Below the pieces are notes generated by a model. The model was not told the origin of the DNA. It did not search any database and worked only from the letters and a program-made list of their open reading frames with translations. A DNA stretch of 35,877 nucleotides from a virus. Made by a program: the position numbers and the translations under genes. The DNA lies in the IMG/VR virus record IMGVR_UViG_3300028735_000018, positions 1 through 35,877 of that record. The stretch is one strand, 5' to 3'. This document shows positions 1,706-34,911 of the stretch, piece after piece. Numbering within the stretch: the stretch's first letter is position 1; the number at the start of each line of letters is the position of its first letter.

Positions 1706-1945
1706 AGGCCCGTTCTGTTTCTAGGTGGAGCCCATACCCAATGAGATTATGCCGCTAGGCGTATCTCAAATGCGAAATTATCATTCGCTGCGTTTATTCT
1801 ATAAGGCTATAGAGGGCCTCGCCCTACTCTCCGCTGGACTTTCAATGTCAATCGATCCCAAATCACTCCCAAACTGGGAAAACTTGGTGGAAGTGCGAGG
1901 AATTGAACCCCGGTCTTGTCCATCTATTACGCCAACATCAACAAG
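1706..1945 (-). ncRNA. ssrA: Circularly permuted (two-piece) tmRNA
   Basis: In minus-strand order the acceptor piece comes first (about 1945 to 1885). It has a T stem/loop CGGGG-UUCAAUU-CCUCG, then CACUUCC-A-CCA. A 14-base spacer follows (1884-1871), then the coding piece starting GGGAGUGAUUUGGGAUCGAU (1870 downward). Its GGGAGUG pairs with CACUUCC over all seven acceptor positions, and the sequence after it resembles the canonical tmRNA start. A hairpin AGGGC-GAG-GCCCU sits in the PK1 region. The tag frame is 1791-1747: AANDNFAFEIRLAA then TAA, the stop enclosed in a GAGAU/AUCUC stem. ANDNF plus a terminal LAA is the classic degradation-tag pattern, and ANDNF is common in alphaproteobacteria. 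The role is rescue of stalled ribosomes with SmpB. The outer ends (1706 and 1945) are estimates. Confidence 0.92.
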
Positions 1946-4605: not shown

Positions 4606-4860
4606 TTATTGGTTCATTTTAGCAAGAATATCTTCTTTAGTCAATTTCATTAATCCATCACATCCGCCCGCAACAAACAACTGGTCTCCCATATAGATCT
4701 GAGGAACAGTTTTATGGCCCTGTGCTTTAAGCCATTCTCGCAGTTCCGTATCCAAACTCACATTCTTTTCCACATATGGAATTTCCAAAGCCTCCAAATA
4801 CTTCTTAGCCTTTACGCAGTAAGGGCAAAAATCCTTGGAATATACAGTTAATGTTTTCAT
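4606..4860 (-). CDS. Glutaredoxin, 84 aa
   Basis: A classical dithiol glutaredoxin. The CPYC active site lies near the N-terminus (TLTVYSKDFCPYCVKAKKYL), the cis-proline segment is KTVPQIYMG, and the GG-C-D glutathione-binding turn is VAGGCDGL. It reduces the class Ia ribonucleotide reductase encoded just upstream, as T4 NrdC does. I chose the ATG at 4860. A TTG six codons upstream is possible, but that would lie deeper inside the endonuclease gene. The ATG overlaps the endonuclease stop (ATGA), and GGAG lies 12 bases ahead within that gene. The endonuclease has therefore inserted between nrdB and grx and now supplies the translational coupling. Confidence 0.95.
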   Translation of the reverse strand: MKTLTVYSKDFCPYCVKAKKYLEALEIPYVEKNVSLDTELREWLKAQGHKTVPQIYMGDQLFVAGGCDGLMKLTKEDILAKMNQ

Positions 4861-6551
4861 TTTCTTATTTTTCTCCAAAGGGTTTTACCGGCATCCCATA
4901 TGCGATCATATCCCAATTCCTGTTCCAATTGCCATTCGGTTTTGGTTATGTTCACTTCTGGATGACGTTGTTTGATTTTGTTTTTCATAAAATGCTCTCT
5001 TCGCCAACGAGTTTGATAATCAGTAACAAAATATCCAGGTTTTTGTTCACGAACCATTTCAAATCCATTTGTTTGATACAAATAACCGTTTGAATGCCTA
5101 TTGTCACTCCAAGAAAAAATCTCACCTCGAAAGTCTATAGCGTTGAGATACCAATTTAACATTTTGGAAAACAGTCCTGAATATATATTTGATATATCAG
5201 TTGCAAATCGAATTATTTCAAGTTTATTTTTATTGGATTTTTTAAAACTCAAACACCCAACTAAATTGTTTTGAGAATTCCAAGCACCAATGGTACAAGA
5301 TCTATCTGATCTTGGTCCCTGTATATGATTGGCTTTATAGAAGACTTCTTCATCTGAATATTTTTTCAAATAATCAATAGTTAATGTTCTAGCACCAATT
5401 CGATTGCCATTGTGAATATTATTAATATACAGAATTTTACTCTTGATTATATCAAACGATAGATTGATTTCATCCTCAAAATATTGATATAAATTAATGC
5501 CCTTTTGTTTACACAAACGATATTTGTTGTAATGATATGATTTATCAGTGTTTCCCCCAATTTCCGAATGCCAATATAATCCATGACATTCAATTGCTGC
5601 TGACACTTGGGGAAAGAAAAAATCCAATTCCAAAGGGGGTATAACACGATGTGTATTTTGTTGATATATTATATGATTTTGATCACAAAAATCCCGAATC
5701 TTGGATTCCAAAAAACTTGATCGATCGGGCTTTATCAAATCTCGACAATTGTATTTAAAACAATAGGCAGCAACAGTTGTTTGATCAACTGGTAATATAT
5801 TTTTTATTTCTTGAAATGTTAATCCATCAATGGTTTTCCTAAAAAGTTCAGGATTCAATAATATTTCCAAATGAACGGGATCAATGTGAATTTGACTGGG
5901 ATTTGAAACCCCATACCTATCCACAACAGTTTGTTTAATTTTTTTTCTAATATCCTGCGATTGCAGGGGCATTTCAACCCCGTATTTTTTTAAATTTGTA
6001 GACTTGACTTTTTTAAAAATTTCCAACCGATTTTCGCCGTATCTTTCCGTTATTTTTTCTTTTGCCTTTTTCTGTATTTCGGAACTTTGAAAAGGCCATG
6101 CATATCCATATTTTTCTTTAAAATGATACATGCATTTGTTTTTTATTTGGGTGGATCGCATGGGATGCCGCGCGCCATATCTTTTTAAATTAGTTTCACG
6201 TATTTTTTCAAACAATTGAGATTTTTCATACGATGTCATATTTTTTCTAGCGGATGCAGTATCAAGCACATTGCATTTACAATTTGCTTTACAATATTTG
6301 TTGTAGCCATCCTTCCAATTTTTAAATTTTAACTTCTGCCCACAACGAACTATTTGTTGAATTTCATTTATATTGTTGAGAACACAGTATAATCTTTCCA
6401 TTATTGATGGGTTATATGTATCCAACCAGCGTGTTTCATTCAATAGAAAATTATAATAAGAAGAATTATTTTTGATTTTTAAACAACATGATATCAAACT
6501 TTTATTACAAGAGAATGTATAATCAATTAATTTATGTAATTCTTCAATCAT
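4857..6551 (-). CDS. Repeat-type homing endonuclease with Vsr-like (PD-(D/E)XK) nuclease domain, 564 aa
   Basis: In order: an N-terminal helical region with a Cys cluster (YCKANCKC, about 91-98). Next come five copies of a 23-residue repeat around KxTxxx(K/R)YGV (for example TNLKKYGVEMPLQSQDIRKK), one of them shortened to 19. A short helix-turn-helix-like linker follows (FQEIKNILPVDQTTVAAYCF). Then a Vsr/EDxHD-type nuclease core: PPLELDFFFPQVSAAIECHG, LYWHSE, then YRLCKQKGINLYQYFEDEI. Last is a C-terminal domain with EIIRFATD, SWSDNRHSNGYLY and a terminal LGYDRIWDAG. Free-standing homing endonuclease is the best call from the architecture and the position inside the nrdB-grx operon. The start ATG at 6551 is 10 bases after nrdB with no clear ribosome site. 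Confidence 0.85.
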   Translation of the reverse strand: MIEELHKLIDYTFSCNKSLISCCLKIKNNSSYYNFLLNETRWLDTYNPSIMERLYCVLNNINEIQQIVRCGQKLKFKNWKDGYNKYCKANCKCNVLDTASARKNMTSYEKSQLFEKIRETNLKRYGARHPMRSTQIKNKCMYHFKEKYGYAWPFQSSEIQKKAKEKITERYGENRLEIFKKVKSTNLKKYGVEMPLQSQDIRKKIKQTVVDRYGVSNPSQIHIDPVHLEILLNPELFRKTIDGLTFQEIKNILPVDQTTVAAYCFKYNCRDLIKPDRSSFLESKIRDFCDQNHIIYQQNTHRVIPPLELDFFFPQVSAAIECHGLYWHSEIGGNTDKSYHYNKYRLCKQKGINLYQYFEDEINLSFDIIKSKILYINNIHNGNRIGARTLTIDYLKKYSDEEVFYKANHIQGPRSDRSCTIGAWNSQNNLVGCLSFKKSNKNKLEIIRFATDISNIYSGLFSKMLNWYLNAIDFRGEIFSWSDNRHSNGYLYQTNGFEMVREQKPGYFVTDYQTRWRREHFMKNKIKQRHPEVNITKTEWQLEQELGYDRIWDAGKTLWRKIRK

Positions 6552-7799: not shown

Positions 7800-8606
7800 T
7801 TAAACTATATAATACCAATTTTTTTCATTTACATCCAAACATAATTTTCTAACATGACTTGTTGACGCAAATCCAAAAATATTGCATGCATCAGTTATTG
7901 TCAAGATTCCTTTTGGAGTGTGAACCTTCTTTCCCTTCCAACGTAACAATGTTGGATCTTTTGGAATATGTTTTGGAGTTTCTTCCCAACTCCATATATA
8001 TCCTCGACAAGATTTAAATTTTCCATCACATGTATAAAGAATATTTGAAGGAGATGTATTATAAAATCTAGCAGCATCAGAAATAGTATCCCATTGTTTT
8101 AAAAAACGACCAAATCTATCAAATTGGTAAACTTTTTTTCCAACTTTAAGTTTCATTGCTGCCTGAGTTTTTTCTTGTATTTTTTGTTTTGTTTCCAAAG
8201 AATGTTTTTTACCCAAAAAACCCTTTGGATGATTGAATTTCAAACGCTCCTTGGCTTTTTTGGATATGATTTCATTTGCTTGTTGTTTCATATTAAAATT
8301 ATGATTAATATGGTCAAATCCTCCTCTGGCTTGCGATGAAACATTTAGAAAAAACACATTGTTTTTAACATCATAATAATCCAACCAATATTGCTCTCGA
8401 TTCCTCACTTGATTTCGATCAAATACAACTTCTAAAATTGTCCTAGAAAAATTTTCAATACCATATTTTTTAATATTTTCTAAAAATCTCACTCCCGAAC
8501 CCAAATAACCATCATTGATATCTCCAATATGGCTGCCAATATATTTTTCTTTGGTAATATTGTTTTCCCAAAGATAGACAAAACCTGAGTAATTTAATTC
8601 ATCCAT
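7800..8606 (-). CDS. GIY-YIG homing endonuclease with NUMOD-type DNA-binding modules, 268 aa
   Basis: The N-terminal catalytic domain is GIY-YIG. The divergent GIY is in GFVYLWENN, YIG is in KEKYIGSHIG, a conserved Arg lies near NREQYWLDYY, and the final Asn is in FFLNVSSQ. A Lys-rich linker is followed by a NUMOD1-like module (KVYQFDRFGRFLKQWDTISD, AARFYNTSPSNI) and a second helix-turn-helix-like module (TPKGILTITDACNIFGFAS). It is free-standing between nrdA and nrdB. Its target could be intein-less or uninvaded nrd DNA of competitor phages. The ATG at 8606 has only a weak GGA ahead. Confidence 0.92.
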   Translation of the reverse strand: MDELNYSGFVYLWENNITKEKYIGSHIGDINDGYLGSGVRFLENIKKYGIENFSRTILEVVFDRNQVRNREQYWLDYYDVKNNVFFLNVSSQARGGFDHINHNFNMKQQANEIISKKAKERLKFNHPKGFLGKKHSLETKQKIQEKTQAAMKLKVGKKVYQFDRFGRFLKQWDTISDAARFYNTSPSNILYTCDGKFKSCRGYIWSWEETPKHIPKDPTLLRWKGKKVHTPKGILTITDACNIFGFASTSHVRKLCLDVNEKNWYYIV

Positions 8607-8636: not shown

Positions 8637-11426
8637 TCACAACACGCAACTATCACAATCGTTTGAATCTTCACTGCTGCTGTGTTTATCAATAATTTCT
8701 TCTGATTTTTCATTATCACTGTTTTTCAATACAAGTTTATCAACTTCGATTTCTCCCTGTCCATCGTATTGATTGAAGTAATAGAGAGTTTTAATGCCAT
8801 ACCGATAACAAAGAAGTAGATGTTTAAGTAACTCACTCATTGGTATTTTTTCATCATCATAAAATTCTGGATTATACGAAGTGTTGGTGGATATGGATTG
8901 GTCAATGTATTTTTGTAGCACTGCCATCAACTTCAAATAACCTTCTGGTGACTTTTGATTCCAAAGTAATTCGTACTTGTTTTTGAGTCGGCGGAATTCT
9001 GGCACCACTTGCTTTAAAACCCCATGCTTGCTTTGTTTGATCGACACGTAAGAGCGAGGTGGTTCCACGCCATTGGTAGCATTGGCTATTTGTGCCGACG
9101 TATTATGACTAATTACCCCATTTCCTAAATGATACACTTCACTATTGGTTGATATATCCCATGTTTGTTCAATAGCAACATTTCGATTAATTTTTTTAAT
9201 TTTCATTTTTATTCTGCTCAAACCAACACTAACAATATCATCGCCTTCCATCAAATTATTAACTTCAACCCATTGTTTAATATTATCCCTAATAACCAAT
9301 AATTTATGATTTTTAGTAAATCTATACTTTGAACCATCCTCAAATTCAATTTCATCAACCCACTGCGGGCCATTATAATAGCATTCGTATGCTTTAATAT
9401 TATTATATAAAAGAATAGGTTTTAAAAACTCAAACCTTTGGCCAATCATTTGTTTCTCATGAACTAAATCAATATCAATATTTCCCAGTTCTTTTATAAG
9501 TCTATCTAATGTTATTTTTTCACCATTTTCTAACAATAACTCATTGTTCAAACTTTGACATTCTGAAGGCATAATGGCCATAAGTGTGGTATTTCTAATA
9601 CCATACTGCTTCAATTCTTCACGCAGCGATTGCCAAGGCATTCTTTCCTGATATGGCACCAATTCATCCACTTCACGCTTTCTTGTATCAATGGGAACGA
9701 TGCCACGCGCATACTTGCTGTGTTCTATCTTTTTTGCTGCACCTTTTTCTTTTGCCAATTCCAAAGAAGCTGCAATCAAATAATAACTCCAAGCTTCAGC
9801 AAATTCATCTGTTTTCACAAGAGCATCAGGATTAGAATAACTGAGATCATTTTTGGCCAACCAATATGCAAAGTTAATCACTCCCACTCCCAGCGGACGA
9901 TAATCTTCCGTATGCTTTTGTGCAGCACGCACTGGATATTTTTGATAATCCAACAGTGCATCCAATCCGCGCACTGCCAATCTGCAGGGTTCTTCAAAGT
10001 CCTCTGGGCGTTGTATCTTACCCCAATTGATTGCTGATAGAGTGCAAAGTGCAATTCTACCCTCTTCATCATTTAGATCATTTAATGGTTTGGTTGGAAG
10101 AGTGATTTCTGCACACAAATTACTCATACGCACCGGAGCCAATGATTCAATATAGGAAGAATGGGTATTTGCATGATCCACATTCATTAAATAGATTCTT
10201 CCTGTATCTTTGCGCTCCTGCATAAAAGCAGTGAAAAGATCGCGTGCTTTTATTGTTTTCTTTCTTATTTTGGGTGATTTTTCAGCATTTTCATACAAAG
10301 TTTTAAACTTGTCTTGATCCGCAAAAAACGCTTCATACAAGCCAGGCACATCGTTGGGAGAAAACAAGGTTATATCACGATCTTGTATTAAGCGTTCGTA
10401 AAACAACTTGGAAAATTGCACACCATAATCCATATGACGAATTCTGTTGTCTTCAGTGCCTTTATTGTTTTTTAGTACCAACAAATCTTCAATTTCCAAA
10501 TGCCAAATGGGATAATACAAAGTTGCAGCACCATTTCTAACGCCACCCTGCGAGCAGCTTCGCACAGCTGCTTGAAACATTTTATAAAATGGTATTACAC
10601 CGGTATGTGTGGCATCACCGTTGCGTATGGGGGAACCAATGGCTCTTATTTTTCCGGCGCCAATGCCAATGCCTGCTTTTTGAGAAACATATCTTACAAT
10701 AGCAGAAGTAGTGGCATTTATTGAATCCAAAGAATCATCGGTTTCAATCAATACGCAAGAAGAAAATTGTTTTTGTGGAGTTCTAACTCCACTCATCACT
10801 GGCGTGGGTAAGGAGACCCAATGCTCTGAAATAGCATCATAATAATCTTTCACCCATTTGAGACGTGTTTCCTTGGGATATTGAGCAAACAGTGTGGCAG
10901 CGATCAAAATATAACACACCTGCGGTGTTTCTAAAATTTCTTTGGTATATCTGTTTTGAACCAAATATTTTCCTCGGAACTGTTCCATAGCAGCATAAGT
11001 CAAAGTTTCATCACGTGAATGTTTAACGAAACCATTGATAGTGTGCCATTCTTCTTTGGAATACCAATTCATAAGTTCTGGATCATAAAATCCCAAAGCC
11101 ACGTTTCTTTCCACGAGTTTATAAAGATGCCAAGGTTCAAATTGACCATAGACTTCTTTTCTCAAATGATAATTAATAAGTCTTCCTGCCACATATTGAT
11201 AGTTGGGTGCTTCCTCGGATATCAAATCCGCGGCAGCTTTGATTAGAGTTTCTTGTATGTCTGATGTTTTAATGTTGTTATAAAATTGAATCTGACTGCG
11301 TATTTCCACCTCAGAGGGTGCAACACCTGAAATACCTGCGCATGCTTCAAAAACAACCTTATGTATTTTTTCAATATTCAGTGGTTCTTTTTGACCATTT
11401 CTTTTAGTAACTAAAATATTAGACAT
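8637..11426 (-). CDS. nrdA: Ribonucleoside-diphosphate reductase class Ia, alpha subunit, interrupted by a mini-intein, 929 aa precursor
   Basis: This is the catalytic subunit. It has an N-terminal ATP-cone (VTKRNGQKEPLNIEKIHKVV), FSSCVL with the first redox Cys, NLCAEI with the radical Cys and catalytic Glu, MPSE and TSAQIANATNG of the phosphate-binding loop split by an intein (residues 623-775), and the radical-transfer tyrosines TLYYFNQ near the C-terminus. The tail ends CDSC-VL, the redox pair reduced by glutaredoxin. After splicing the enzyme would be 776 aa, normal for the class. The ATG at 11426 follows AGGAG at good spacing. A possible -10 (TATAAT) lies at 11464-11469 on the minus strand. 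It is first gene of the RNR-glutaredoxin operon. Confidence 0.97.
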   Translation of the reverse strand: MSNILVTKRNGQKEPLNIEKIHKVVFEACAGISGVAPSEVEIRSQIQFYNNIKTSDIQETLIKAAADLISEEAPNYQYVAGRLINYHLRKEVYGQFEPWHLYKLVERNVALGFYDPELMNWYSKEEWHTINGFVKHSRDETLTYAAMEQFRGKYLVQNRYTKEILETPQVCYILIAATLFAQYPKETRLKWVKDYYDAISEHWVSLPTPVMSGVRTPQKQFSSCVLIETDDSLDSINATTSAIVRYVSQKAGIGIGAGKIRAIGSPIRNGDATHTGVIPFYKMFQAAVRSCSQGGVRNGAATLYYPIWHLEIEDLLVLKNNKGTEDNRIRHMDYGVQFSKLFYERLIQDRDITLFSPNDVPGLYEAFFADQDKFKTLYENAEKSPKIRKKTIKARDLFTAFMQERKDTGRIYLMNVDHANTHSSYIESLAPVRMSNLCAEITLPTKPLNDLNDEEGRIALCTLSAINWGKIQRPEDFEEPCRLAVRGLDALLDYQKYPVRAAQKHTEDYRPLGVGVINFAYWLAKNDLSYSNPDALVKTDEFAEAWSYYLIAASLELAKEKGAAKKIEHSKYARGIVPIDTRKREVDELVPYQERMPWQSLREELKQYGIRNTTLMAIMPSECQSLNNELLLENGEKITLDRLIKELGNIDIDLVHEKQMIGQRFEFLKPILLYNNIKAYECYYNGPQWVDEIEFEDGSKYRFTKNHKLLVIRDNIKQWVEVNNLMEGDDIVSVGLSRIKMKIKKINRNVAIEQTWDISTNSEVYHLGNGVISHNTSAQIANATNGVEPPRSYVSIKQSKHGVLKQVVPEFRRLKNKYELLWNQKSPEGYLKLMAVLQKYIDQSISTNTSYNPEFYDDEKIPMSELLKHLLLCYRYGIKTLYYFNQYDGQGEIEVDKLVLKNSDNEKSEEIIDKHSSSEDSNDCDSCVL
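9102..9560 (-). mobile_element. Mini-intein in NrdA, 153 aa, no endonuclease domain
   Basis: Splicing blocks are visible. Block A starts at Cys1 (CQSLNNELLLENGEKITLDR). Block B carries TxxH (RFTKNHKLLVI). Block F is TWDISTNSEVYHLGNG, and block G is VISHN, with Thr as the first C-extein residue. Cys1, the block B His, the penultimate His and the final Asn are all present, so it should splice. It interrupts MPSE/TSAQIANATNG, the conserved substrate-phosphate loop, so NrdA is probably inactive until it leaves. No LAGLIDADG or HNH segment lies between blocks B and F. Confidence 0.93.
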
Positions 11427-22905: not shown

Positions 22906-24963
22906 GTGATCGAGCATTTAAGAAATATTCTTGAGAAATACAAAAGGCACTATCAAAAAAAGATTAAACGGGATGGAGAACTATTGGAATGGATAGAATC
23001 TCATCCAAGAGTTAAAGATTTTCGTGACTTGTCATTAAAGGAACAAATTGCTGCGATTATTCATGATGTTGATATTAGGTGCAATAATTCCAAATTAAGA
23101 AAATTTTTATCAATTAACAAGGGATTTGGGTTTTGTGATGTTGCAGGAGCGTCCTGTGAATGTTTGAACAGTTTTTTAAGTCAACGGGCAAAAGAAAACA
23201 TTCAAAAACGCAGTGATTTGGAAAAACAACAAATTAAAGCAAAAACACAGGTTACAAATTTAAAAAAATATGGCAAAGTTCATCATTTTCAAAATCCAAT
23301 TATTCGAGAGAAGATTAAACAAACTAATTTAAAAAAATATGGAGAGGAGTTTGCTTCTAAAAATGAATACATAAAGAAAAAAATAGAAAAAACAGTTGTT
23401 GACAAATATAAGGAAACGCATATTTCAAAAGTGAAAGAGTTTCAAAATAAGAAGAAACAAACAAATTTAAAAAAATATGGTGTTGATCATCATAGTAAAA
23501 ATATTGATATTAAACAAAAAATAATAAAAAACCAAAAACAAACTTTTTTGGAAAAATATGGTGTTGATCACAATTGGAAAGCAAAAATCGTTAGGTATAA
23601 AATTAAACAGACTAATTTAAAAAAATATGGCGTGGAATTTGCTTCTCAATCCACATGTGTTAAACAAAAAAAGAAAAAGAAAACTCAGGAAAAATATGGT
23701 GTGGATACTATTTTTCAAATTCCAGAAATAAAAAACAAAATTATTTCCAAAAATATTAGCAGATATGGTAAGCCATACCCTTTTGGATCTGATATAATTA
23801 AAGAAAAAAGCAAACAAACAAATTTAAAAAAATATGGCACAATATATCCAACGCAAAATTTTAAAGTGAAAGAAAAAATCAGATATAGTAATATAAAAAA
23901 ATATGGTGTGGATCATTATACAAAAAAACACATTAACATGGAAATATTATCAAAAATTAATGACGTTGAATGGTTGAAGCACAATCATCATGATTTGGAA
24001 AAACCTATTTTTCAAATAGCAAATGAAATTGGGGTATCTGCCACTTATTTAACTAAAATTTTTCATGAAAAATCAATCCCTATAAAATTGTTTCAAAAAA
24101 GTGTTAATGAAAAAAATATCACTGATTTTATTAAAACCTTAAATTTATCGTTGGAAACAAATAATAGAACTTTGATCCCTCCTTTGGAGTTGGATATTTT
24201 TGTACCTGAAAAACACTTGGCTATTGAATATTGTGGTTTATATTGGCATTCAGAAACATCAGCAAACAAGCCGGTCAATTATCATTTAAACAAATTAAAA
24301 TTATGTAATGAAAAAAACATTCGGTTGATTACTATATTTTCAGATGAATGGGAAAACAAACAGGAAATTGTTAAAAATAGACTCAAACACATATTGGGAT
24401 TCAGTGATCGCATATGTTTGGCTCGTGAAACAGAAATATATCCCATATCAAGTGAATTGTATAGGTCATTTGTTGATCAACACCACATTCAAGGGTCAAT
24501 TGCTTCCAAAATTAAATTGGGCGCTTTTTATCAAAATCAATTGGTTGCAGCCATGGGATTAGGCGCGAGAAGACGAAACTTGGGAGCAAAAAATTCTGGA
24601 CCAAATGACTATGAAATGTTAAGGTTTTGCACAAAAGGTCATGTGCCAGGCATAGGTGGCAAATTATTCAAATATTTTGTTAGCAACTATTCCCCACATC
24701 AAGTTATAAGTTATGCAGATAGGAGATGGGGTGAAGGAGAATTTTATCGTCATTTGGGATTTGAATTTGTGGAATCCACTGGTCCCAGTTATTTTTATAC
24801 CAATGATTACAAAAAGAGACACAATAGGTTCGCATTTCGTAAAGATGTGATTGTACGAGAGTTAAAAGGCGATGCTAATAAAACTGAATGGGAAAATATG
24901 CAGACATTGGGATATGATCGCATTTGGGATTGTGGAACTAACAAATGGATTTGGAATAGATAA
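22906..24963 (+). CDS. Repeat-type homing endonuclease with ten 23-residue repeats, 685 aa
   Basis: In order: a helical N-terminus, a Cys cluster (FCDVAGASCEC, about 83-93), ten repeats of the KQTNLKKYGVxxxx type with Tyr-Gly spaced exactly 23 residues (once 27), a helix-turn-helix-like segment (FQIANEIGVSATYLTKIF), a Vsr/PD-(D/E)XK nuclease core (PPLELDIFVPEKHLAIEYCG, LYWHSE, then RLITIFSDEW), and a GNAT-like C-terminal domain (MLRFCTKGHVPGIGGKLFKY, SYADRRWGEGEFYRHLGFEF) ending YDRIWDCG. The start is a GTG at 22906 with no good ribosome site, so it is uncertain. It is inserted between two divergent gene blocks, directly beside a tnpB remnant. Confidence 0.85.
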   Translation: MIEHLRNILEKYKRHYQKKIKRDGELLEWIESHPRVKDFRDLSLKEQIAAIIHDVDIRCNNSKLRKFLSINKGFGFCDVAGASCECLNSFLSQRAKENIQKRSDLEKQQIKAKTQVTNLKKYGKVHHFQNPIIREKIKQTNLKKYGEEFASKNEYIKKKIEKTVVDKYKETHISKVKEFQNKKKQTNLKKYGVDHHSKNIDIKQKIIKNQKQTFLEKYGVDHNWKAKIVRYKIKQTNLKKYGVEFASQSTCVKQKKKKKTQEKYGVDTIFQIPEIKNKIISKNISRYGKPYPFGSDIIKEKSKQTNLKKYGTIYPTQNFKVKEKIRYSNIKKYGVDHYTKKHINMEILSKINDVEWLKHNHHDLEKPIFQIANEIGVSATYLTKIFHEKSIPIKLFQKSVNEKNITDFIKTLNLSLETNNRTLIPPLELDIFVPEKHLAIEYCGLYWHSETSANKPVNYHLNKLKLCNEKNIRLITIFSDEWENKQEIVKNRLKHILGFSDRICLARETEIYPISSELYRSFVDQHHIQGSIASKIKLGAFYQNQLVAAMGLGARRRNLGAKNSGPNDYEMLRFCTKGHVPGIGGKLFKYFVSNYSPHQVISYADRRWGEGEFYRHLGFEFVESTGPSYFYTNDYKKRHNRFAFRKDVIVRELKGDANKTEWENMQTLGYDRIWDCGTNKWIWNR

Positions 24964-33037: not shown

Positions 33038-34911
33038 ATGAAACCATCGTCATATGGTAGATACTTGACGTCGAATAAAAATTTGGATCTTCTACAATGG
33101 TTAAAATCTCAAGTAAAATATCAATTCACATCCATAAATGAATTGGTATTCCTTTATCAAAATCCCACATTCAATCCCATATGTGAATTGGTGAATAAAA
33201 GAAAATTTACTAAGGGGCGGCACGGGTTGGATATGGTGTTGGCTGTGGTGGAAATTGTGCATGTGTAAAAAAGAATAGAAATAAAAAATTAAGTGAAGTT
33301 AAAAAACAATTTAGTGATGAAAAAAAGAAAGAAATTAATAATAAGAAAAAACAAACTTTTATTGAAAAATATGGCGTTGACAATCCTTTAAAATCAAAAA
33401 AAAAAATACAAGAAAAAATTAAAAAAAACCAATAGAGAAAGATATGGTTTTGCTAGCCCGTCGAAAAATCAAGAAGTGAAAGAAAAAAATCAAACAAACT
33501 TGTCTTGAAAGGTATGGATACGAAAATCCAAACAAAAATTTAAAAATTAAAAATAAAATTCAGTTAACTAATTTAACAAAATATGGTGTTAAGAATCCAA
33601 GACAAAATCAAAAAGTAAGTAACAAGATCAAACAAACCAATAGAGAAAGGTATGGTGTTGAATCAGGGTTAGCAAATTCTGATATTAGAAATAAAATTAA
33701 ACAAACTGTTTTGATCAAATATGGTAGTGATCATCACTTTAAAAATGATGAAATTAAACAAAAAAGACAAAAAACTTTTATTGAAAAATACGGTGCTAAT
33801 CATCCTATGAAATCTGAAAAGATAAAAGATAAGGTCAAAAAAAACAAATATGGATAGGTATAGCGTTGAATATTTCAGTCAAAATCATATTCACAAAGAT
33901 CAATTAAACATACTGTTGGATAGTAACCGTTTTAAACAGGTGATACAAGGTAAAACATTTGCTCAAATATATAAATTTTTACAAGTTGATAGAACTACTA
34001 TTGAAAAATATTCTATTAAATATCAATGTCATGACATTATAAATTGGACATCTTCATATTTAGAAGATCAAATTGAAGATATATGTAAAAATAATTCAAT
34101 TGAGTATGTGAGAAATACTAGTAAAATAATCCCGCCTTTGGAATTGGATTTTTATTTTCCGCATGCAAATGCTGCTATTGAATGTCATAGATTATATTGG
34201 CATTCAGAAAATATTACAAATAAAGTTAAGGAGTATCATTGGAATAAATGGAAAATGTGTGAAGAAAGGGGAATTGATCTATATCAATATTTTGAAGATG
34301 AAATAAATGACAAATTTGAAGTTATAAAAAGCAAAATTTTATATTTGAATAATAAACATTTAGGTAAAATTATTGGGGCGCGCGAATTATCAATTAATTG
34401 GTTAAAAAATAGAAGCGATGAAGAGCACTTTTATAATTCCAATCACTTACAGGGTATTAGATATGACAGAACACATGTGATTGGTGCTTGTAATAATCAG
34501 TTTGATTTGGTTGCGGTTATGAGTATTAAGTGTATCAAATCCAATCAAATGGAAATTGTTCGTTTCGCCACCGATATTGTTAATAGGTATCCGGGTGCTT
34601 TTAGCAAAATGTTAACTTGGGCTATTAATCAATTAAATTTCAAAGGAGAGGTATTGAGTTGGAGTGACAATCGCCATTCCAATGGTCATCTTTATAAATC
34701 AAATGGCTTTAAATATGTGCGTGAACAAGGGCTGGCATATTTCGTTACTGATTATGTCAATAGATGGCGTAGAGAACATTTTATGAAAAACAAAATAAAA
34801 GAACGCCATCCAGAAGTAGATTTAAACAAAACTGAATGGTAATTAACTCAAGAATTGGGATTTGATAGAATATGGGACGCAGGTAAACGCCTTTGGAGCA
34901 AAATAATCTAA
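33038..34911 (+). pseudogene. Broken repeat-type homing endonuclease
   Basis: Joined across frames, this encodes the same protein type as 22906-24963 and 4857-6551: helical N-terminus, Cys cluster (GCGGNCAC), about eight 23-residue KYG repeats, the Vsr-like core (PPLELDFYFPHANAAIECHR, LYWHSE, YQYFEDEI) and the C-terminal domain (SWSDNRHSNGHLY, DRIWDAGKRLW). Frame changes occur near 33220-33240, in A-runs at about 33420, 33485 and 33840, and a TAA at 34840-34842 replaces what is a Gln codon in the intact copy. The intact tail (33850-34842) still covers the nuclease core. Decay is the best reading, though homopolymer sequencing error could explain some of the shifts. Intergenic 32967-33037 holds only AT-rich sequence. 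Confidence 0.85.

Follow-up and report, generated by a model that had tools for sequence, protein, structure and literature searches.

The minus strand of this virus record, from about position 1945 to 1706, raises the question whether a phage carries its own working tmRNA and, if so, how the phage came by the gene and what it would do during infection. The window, by which we mean the whole stretch of DNA analysed, is a virus record of 35,877 bases, a fragment of about 36 kb. A sequence-only reading had proposed a two-piece tmRNA, captured from an alphaproteobacterial-type host and possibly keeping ribosomes free late in infection.

Identity and anatomy of the tmRNA gene

On sequence evidence, we could confirm that the segment has the make-up of an intact, circularly permuted (two-piece) phage tmRNA gene. 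The covariance-model search that had been suggested as a check gave a match to the Rfam model RF04321 (tmRNA_permuted) at 1947-1747 (-), with 86.6 bits against a cut-off of 47 and an E-value of 1.8e-15, and a second one to RF01849 (alpha_tmRNA) at 1985-1703 (-), with 60.8 bits against a cut-off of 50. Among the three older models (alpha, beta and cyano) only alpha_tmRNA was above its cut-off, indicating the alpha subtype. ARAGORN also calls a permuted tmRNA at this locus and gives the tag AANDNFAFEIRLAA, the same as read from the sequence. The proposed order, with the acceptor piece ahead of the coding piece, and its coordinates are borne out by sequence, Rfam and ARAGORN together. The score is below that of many phage and bacterial tmRNAs (86.6 vs. 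100-160 bits), and blastn with the tmRNA region as query matched none of 50,697 phage records.

The acceptor piece of about 61 nt (1945-1885, minus strand, as are all parts of the gene) is defined by both Rfam models, coordinates and covariation. It comprises the P2 5' strand, the expected T arm (1912-1896), the acceptor 3' strand CACUUCC (1895-1889), A73 (1888) and an encoded CCA (1887-1885), which forms an ACCA end with A73. The coding piece of about 165 nt (1870-1706, with G1 at 1870), placed by Rfam and coordinates, contains the acceptor 5' strand GGGAGUG (1870-1864), the D-loop with the motif GGAUCGA, the tag and the 3' helix. All seven pairs of the acceptor stem form, six of them Watson-Crick pairs and one the wobble pair G3-U70. 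This wobble is the mark of alanine tRNA, and all alanine identity elements are present: G3-U70 (G1868-U1891), A73 (A1888) and the CCA at 1887-1885.

The tag reading frame, GCA to UAA, occupies 1791-1747. Its resume codon GCA (1791-1789) has a U at -5 and an A at -4, the same context as in E. coli tmRNA. The frame was described as complete with its stop in a stem, and we find that RNA folding places the tag end and the stop codon in a hairpin (1767-1743), where the stop straddles bulge and stem. A 3' terminal helix (1733-1728 with 1711-1706), recognized by covariation and alignment, encloses the conserved ACCnnGAAACAGAA loop of alpha-type tmRNA, with the alpha-type 3' motif ACCUAGAAACAGAA at 1726-1713.

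The two pieces are separated by the predicted intervening segment of 14 nt, AGTTTTCCCAGTTT (1884-1871), which is expected to be excised. Elsewhere, spacer lengths range from 20 to 410 nt in phages and are mostly 20-60 nt in bacteria. Spacers of 74-222 nt are frequent in phage permuted tmRNAs (loci L105, L110, L111, L114, L118, L124 and L129), and that of Sinorhizobium phage Phosso (L096) is, at 410 nt, far longer than most bacterial ones. The L105 spacer has complementary ends (AGATACATTGG / CCAATGTATCT), and a hairpin formed by them would join the two acceptor strands.

Covariation and folding

In an ungapped alignment of 21 distinct phage tmRNAs, all 252 cells of the acceptor and T-arm helices are standard pairs (12/12 in each sequence; none of 500 shuffles as high), a percentage biased upwards because the script that picked the helix segments required at least 6/7 acceptor pairs and at least 4/5 T-stem pairs. 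Stronger evidence than the percentage paired comes from the diversity of compensating pair types. Eight pairs are altered on both sides, and the covariation of these helices was 0.663 compared to 0.143 in shuffles. G3-U70 is invariant across the 21 sequences. The covariance models independently recovered the same phage tmRNA genes. For the 3' terminal helix, 42/42 cells were paired over seven phage loci, against 32.7 in shuffles, and none of 2000 shuffles equalled this value. The minimum free energy of the single-strand fold was not above that of shuffles (z 0.15), so that covariation and models carry the case.

Promoter and gene neighbourhood

A promoter TTGACA-17-TATAAA lies on the minus strand at 1981-1953 (-35 at 1981-1976, -10 at 1958-1953), with the start predicted near 1945, which is the start of the acceptor piece. 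The standard promoter scan missed it because it demands a final T. In the whole window it is the sole match to TTGACA-N16-18-TATAA[AT]. Moreover, the window and 22 other phage loci, several of which are near-copies of one another, have TTGACA-17-TATAA[AT] at 94-99 nt ahead of the CCA, while the sequence between the hexamers varies. A consensus host sigma-70 type promoter, as judged from its sequence, points to early or constant expression; the anatomy of the locus therefore gives no support to the late-infection role that had been considered. Back to back with this promoter stands a divergent one (TTGACA-16-TAGAAT, from the promoter scan), which precedes a GNAT acetyltransferase gene (2036-2617, Pfam PF00583) on the plus strand, the two together spanning 1990-2617.

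The contig encodes a ribonucleotide reductase, a primase, a DnaB-like helicase, virion proteins and several homing endonucleases. Among annotated phages, the helicase is closest to those of Phosso (52%), P. aeruginosa phage PA5oct (49%) and Agrobacterium phage Atu_ph07 (49%), which suggests that the contig derives from the genome of a jumbo phage. The 36 kb contain five endonuclease genes of the homing, HNH or GIY-YIG type (1227-1673, 4857-6551, 7800-8606, 22906-24963 and 33850-34842), two of them flanking nrdB and nrdA. The NrdA protein (8637-11426, minus strand; 929 aa) has an insertion near its C-terminal third, and a weak, below-cut-off Pfam match of residues 663-734 to an intein splicing domain suggests an intein.

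Directly downstream of the tmRNA and on the same strand lies an HNH / endonuclease VII-like ORF (1673-1227; PHROG 1035/26577). An ORF with 62% identity occupies the same place in L105, and close relatives of L105 diverge at this position, as expected of a mobile endonuclease; the ORF is probably a freestanding one. On the other side, a PAAR-repeat protein (2977-2675, minus strand; Pfam PF05488) is a conserved neighbour of the tmRNA, with 48% identity to its Phosso counterpart and the same order and strand. The Phosso record (PV764938.1) contains a permuted tmRNA at 349596-350198 (113.3 bits) that is not annotated there. In the window as in Phosso, PAAR and then small ORFs lie on the higher-coordinate side of the tmRNA and share its strand. 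The order tmRNA, PAAR, ORF, ORF3910, ORF4238 is common to both, strand included, with 31% identity for ORF3910 and 42% for ORF4238. In other carriers, too, ORF4238-like genes are found a few kb or less from the tmRNA.

Atu_ph07, PA5oct, XaC1 and Vibrio phage 2.275 gave no permuted tmRNA, and a search for a standard tmRNA in five related records gave sub-threshold matches only. Exact peptide patterns from the GNAT and helicase proteins revealed no relatives among viral contigs. A structural-protein pattern recovered one relative, whose contig is without a tmRNA but is a fragment.

Origin of the gene

The neighbourhood common to the window and Phosso indicates that the tmRNA was most likely present in their common ancestor. 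We built a tree of 127 spliced tmRNAs, 21 from phages and 106 from bacteria, the latter being the top-scoring subset from 398 Pseudomonadota genomes. In this tree the window groups with the phage tmRNAs: splits made up of phages only have supports of 74-80, including a 17-tip split with support 80, and a 22-tip split unites all 21 phage sequences with one bacterial sequence (support 95). The closest phage types are 74-82% identical to the window tmRNA, the best bacterial one 72%. The nearest tmRNAs are thus phage ones, and not those of a bacterial donor; since the bacterial sample is probably alpha-rich and the branches are long, this allows only the weak conclusion that a recent host capture is not visible. 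Of the suggested capture from an alphaproteobacterial-type host, the alpha type is upheld by the Rfam alpha model and the tag, whereas a recent event is at odds with the phage affinity of all nearest tmRNAs and the gene order common to Phosso. Most likely, judging from these comparisons, the tmRNA gene has long been part of this jumbo-phage lineage and was passed down within it rather than freshly captured.

The tag and its phage family

The window tag retains the LAA end and the ANDNFA start of Caulobacter-like tags and is close to the bacterial tags ANDNFAEEVRLAA and ANDNFAEEFAVAA. The LAA end is a ClpX determinant, among the ClpX and SspB determinants of such tags. Degron tests in E. coli demonstrated that the AANDENY and ALAA parts both matter (PMC8512704). 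A text search of the literature for the tag strings found no paper.

Two phage tags, that of the window and that of L097/L129, both end in FE[IV]RLAA. A DNA pattern designed after these two cases were seen, FE[IVM]R[LF]AA-stop with TAA stops and CGN arginine only, occurred in 25 viral contigs, and 24 of these are permuted tmRNAs read in that frame. They represent at least nine types, all with the FE[IVM]RLAA end, which include both alpha-like and beta-like architectures and have distant helicases. In 84,980 genomes of bacteria and archaea the same pattern had 16 occurrences, and no tmRNA was among them. Among 120 bacterial tags, the FE form is absent and near variants such as EARLAA and EVRLAA are present. 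RLAA alone was also considered as a phage-specific end and rejected, as 22 of the 120 bacterial tags carry it. Since RLAA is common, near variants occur in bacteria and FE is absent, the window tag seems to be of alphaproteobacterial type, slightly altered in a way specific to phages.

The recurrence of this end in phages raises the question whether phages adjust what becomes of rescued proteins. It is conceivable, though we regard it as doubtful, that FE[IVM]RLAA is a phage-specific degradation tag ending across alpha-type and beta-type tmRNAs, absent from sequenced bacteria and under selection in phages. If this were true, the ending might direct rescued proteins towards a particular protease or adaptor of the host.

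Some other phage tmRNAs stand out by their tag or layout. For the permuted tmRNA of L163 / L004 (IMGVR_UViG_3300029319_007985), the tag predicted by ARAGORN, ANRKALRFADLVAMPTSGSALRLAA, is unusually long, and the long tag ANDNFKPELSFDFDGVLEAA of the permuted tmRNA of L100 (G025) ends in LEAA instead of LAA. For L122 / L172 (G050; tag AANDAIFEVRLAA) the acceptor and coding pieces are apparently several hundred bases apart, with a model match that spans 780 nt.

Proposed function

Taken together, the locus very probably encodes a functional, alphaproteobacterial-type, circularly permuted tmRNA that would support trans-translation via host factors. Host RNA polymerase would make one precursor from about 1945, from which host tRNA-processing enzymes would free the CCA end (1885) and the 5' end of the coding piece (1870), with loss of the 14-nt spacer. 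The two pieces would remain base-paired, be charged with alanine by the host alanyl-tRNA synthetase and bind host SmpB and EF-Tu. No SmpB was found in 14 phage records, including the complete Phosso genome; host SmpB is therefore probably used, and function would depend on the fit to it. The charged tmRNA would release ribosomes stalled on broken mRNA and add AANDNFAFEIRLAA to the product, leading to degradation by host ClpXP. During infection, the phage tmRNA may thus top up or replace that of the host at a time when much mRNA is being broken.

The phage tmRNA might instead counter host trans-translation, either by competing for SmpB or by altering the tag so that tagged proteins fare differently, to the benefit of the phage. 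It has been reported that a tmRNA of phage DS6A, which has the tRNA-like domain only, inhibits the endogenous tmRNA (PMC11915505, PMC4131195), and a tag end that recurs in phages but was absent from the tmRNAs of the prokaryotic genomes searched would suit such a role. However, the window keeps the full tag frame, the resume context and the LAA end, unlike DS6A, and bacterial tags such as ANDNFAEEVRLAA differ little from its tag, so that we consider this function improbable.

It is far less probable that the gene is a passenger or a decaying host copy with no role. A covariance score below that of many relatives and the adjoining HNH endonuclease would fit such a copy, but the paired elements, tag and promoter are all intact at 74-82% identity to relatives, and both the compensatory changes and the neighbourhood common to relatives argue against decay. 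Host ssrA genes are common integration sites (PMC11915505), and the locus could in principle be a tmRNA fragment left by integration, or host chromosomal sequence misassigned to a virus. Yet no integrase was seen on the contig, which has a jumbo-phage-type ribonucleotide reductase, primase, helicase and virion genes and is syntenic with the isolated phage Phosso; to these origins we assign a next to negligible probability. The functional tmRNA that relies on host factors is hence the reading we prefer.

Comparison with known systems

Phage-encoded tmRNAs of this kind are not new. In 2022, 402 of 18,146 phage genomes were found to carry a tmRNA, and 53 two-piece types were counted, of which marine or aquatic phages contributed 50 (PMC9004378). 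The 2025 tmRNA database holds 79 phage sequences (PMC11915505), huge phages carry tmRNA and SmpB (PMC7162821), and a tmRNA is listed in the Sinorhizobium jumbo phage AP-J-162 (PMC11242549).

Phosso (PV764938) resembles the window in its permuted alpha-type tmRNA, the same neighbours (PAAR and small ORFs) and a near-identical 3' end (GGGTATGGGnTCCACCTnGAAACAGAACGGGCC), and differs in its 410-nt spacer and the tag ANDNVSTKVALAA, compared to 14 nt and AANDNFAFEIRLAA in the window. The ssrA of the methylophage Melnitz and other marine two-piece phage tmRNAs are likewise phage-encoded and of alphaproteobacterial affinity (PMC9004378). The Melnitz gene is linked to a glutamine riboswitch and a transcription coactivator (PMC9004378), whereas no riboswitch was found at the window locus in the Rfam search. 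With the alphaproteobacterial permuted tmRNA (RF01849; Caulobacter type) the window shares the two pieces with the acceptor first, the alanine pair, the D-loop GGAUCGA, the 3' AACAGAA motif and the tag start ANDNFA. It is at most 72% identical to the sampled bacterial tmRNAs, and its tag ends in FEIRLAA, where hosts have EARLAA, EVRLAA or EFAVAA. The tmRNAs of mycobacteriophage cluster C and Bacillus phage G are one-piece genes; these standard forms are also complete and phage-carried, but belong to unrelated phages.

Overall, the window adds a clear case of putative jumbo-phage-encoded ribosome rescue, in which the tmRNA gene appears as an old, promoter-driven and conserved part of the lineage and not as a stray host copy. 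Compared with the known systems it is ordinary in kind, and the tag family shared among phages is its modest novelty.
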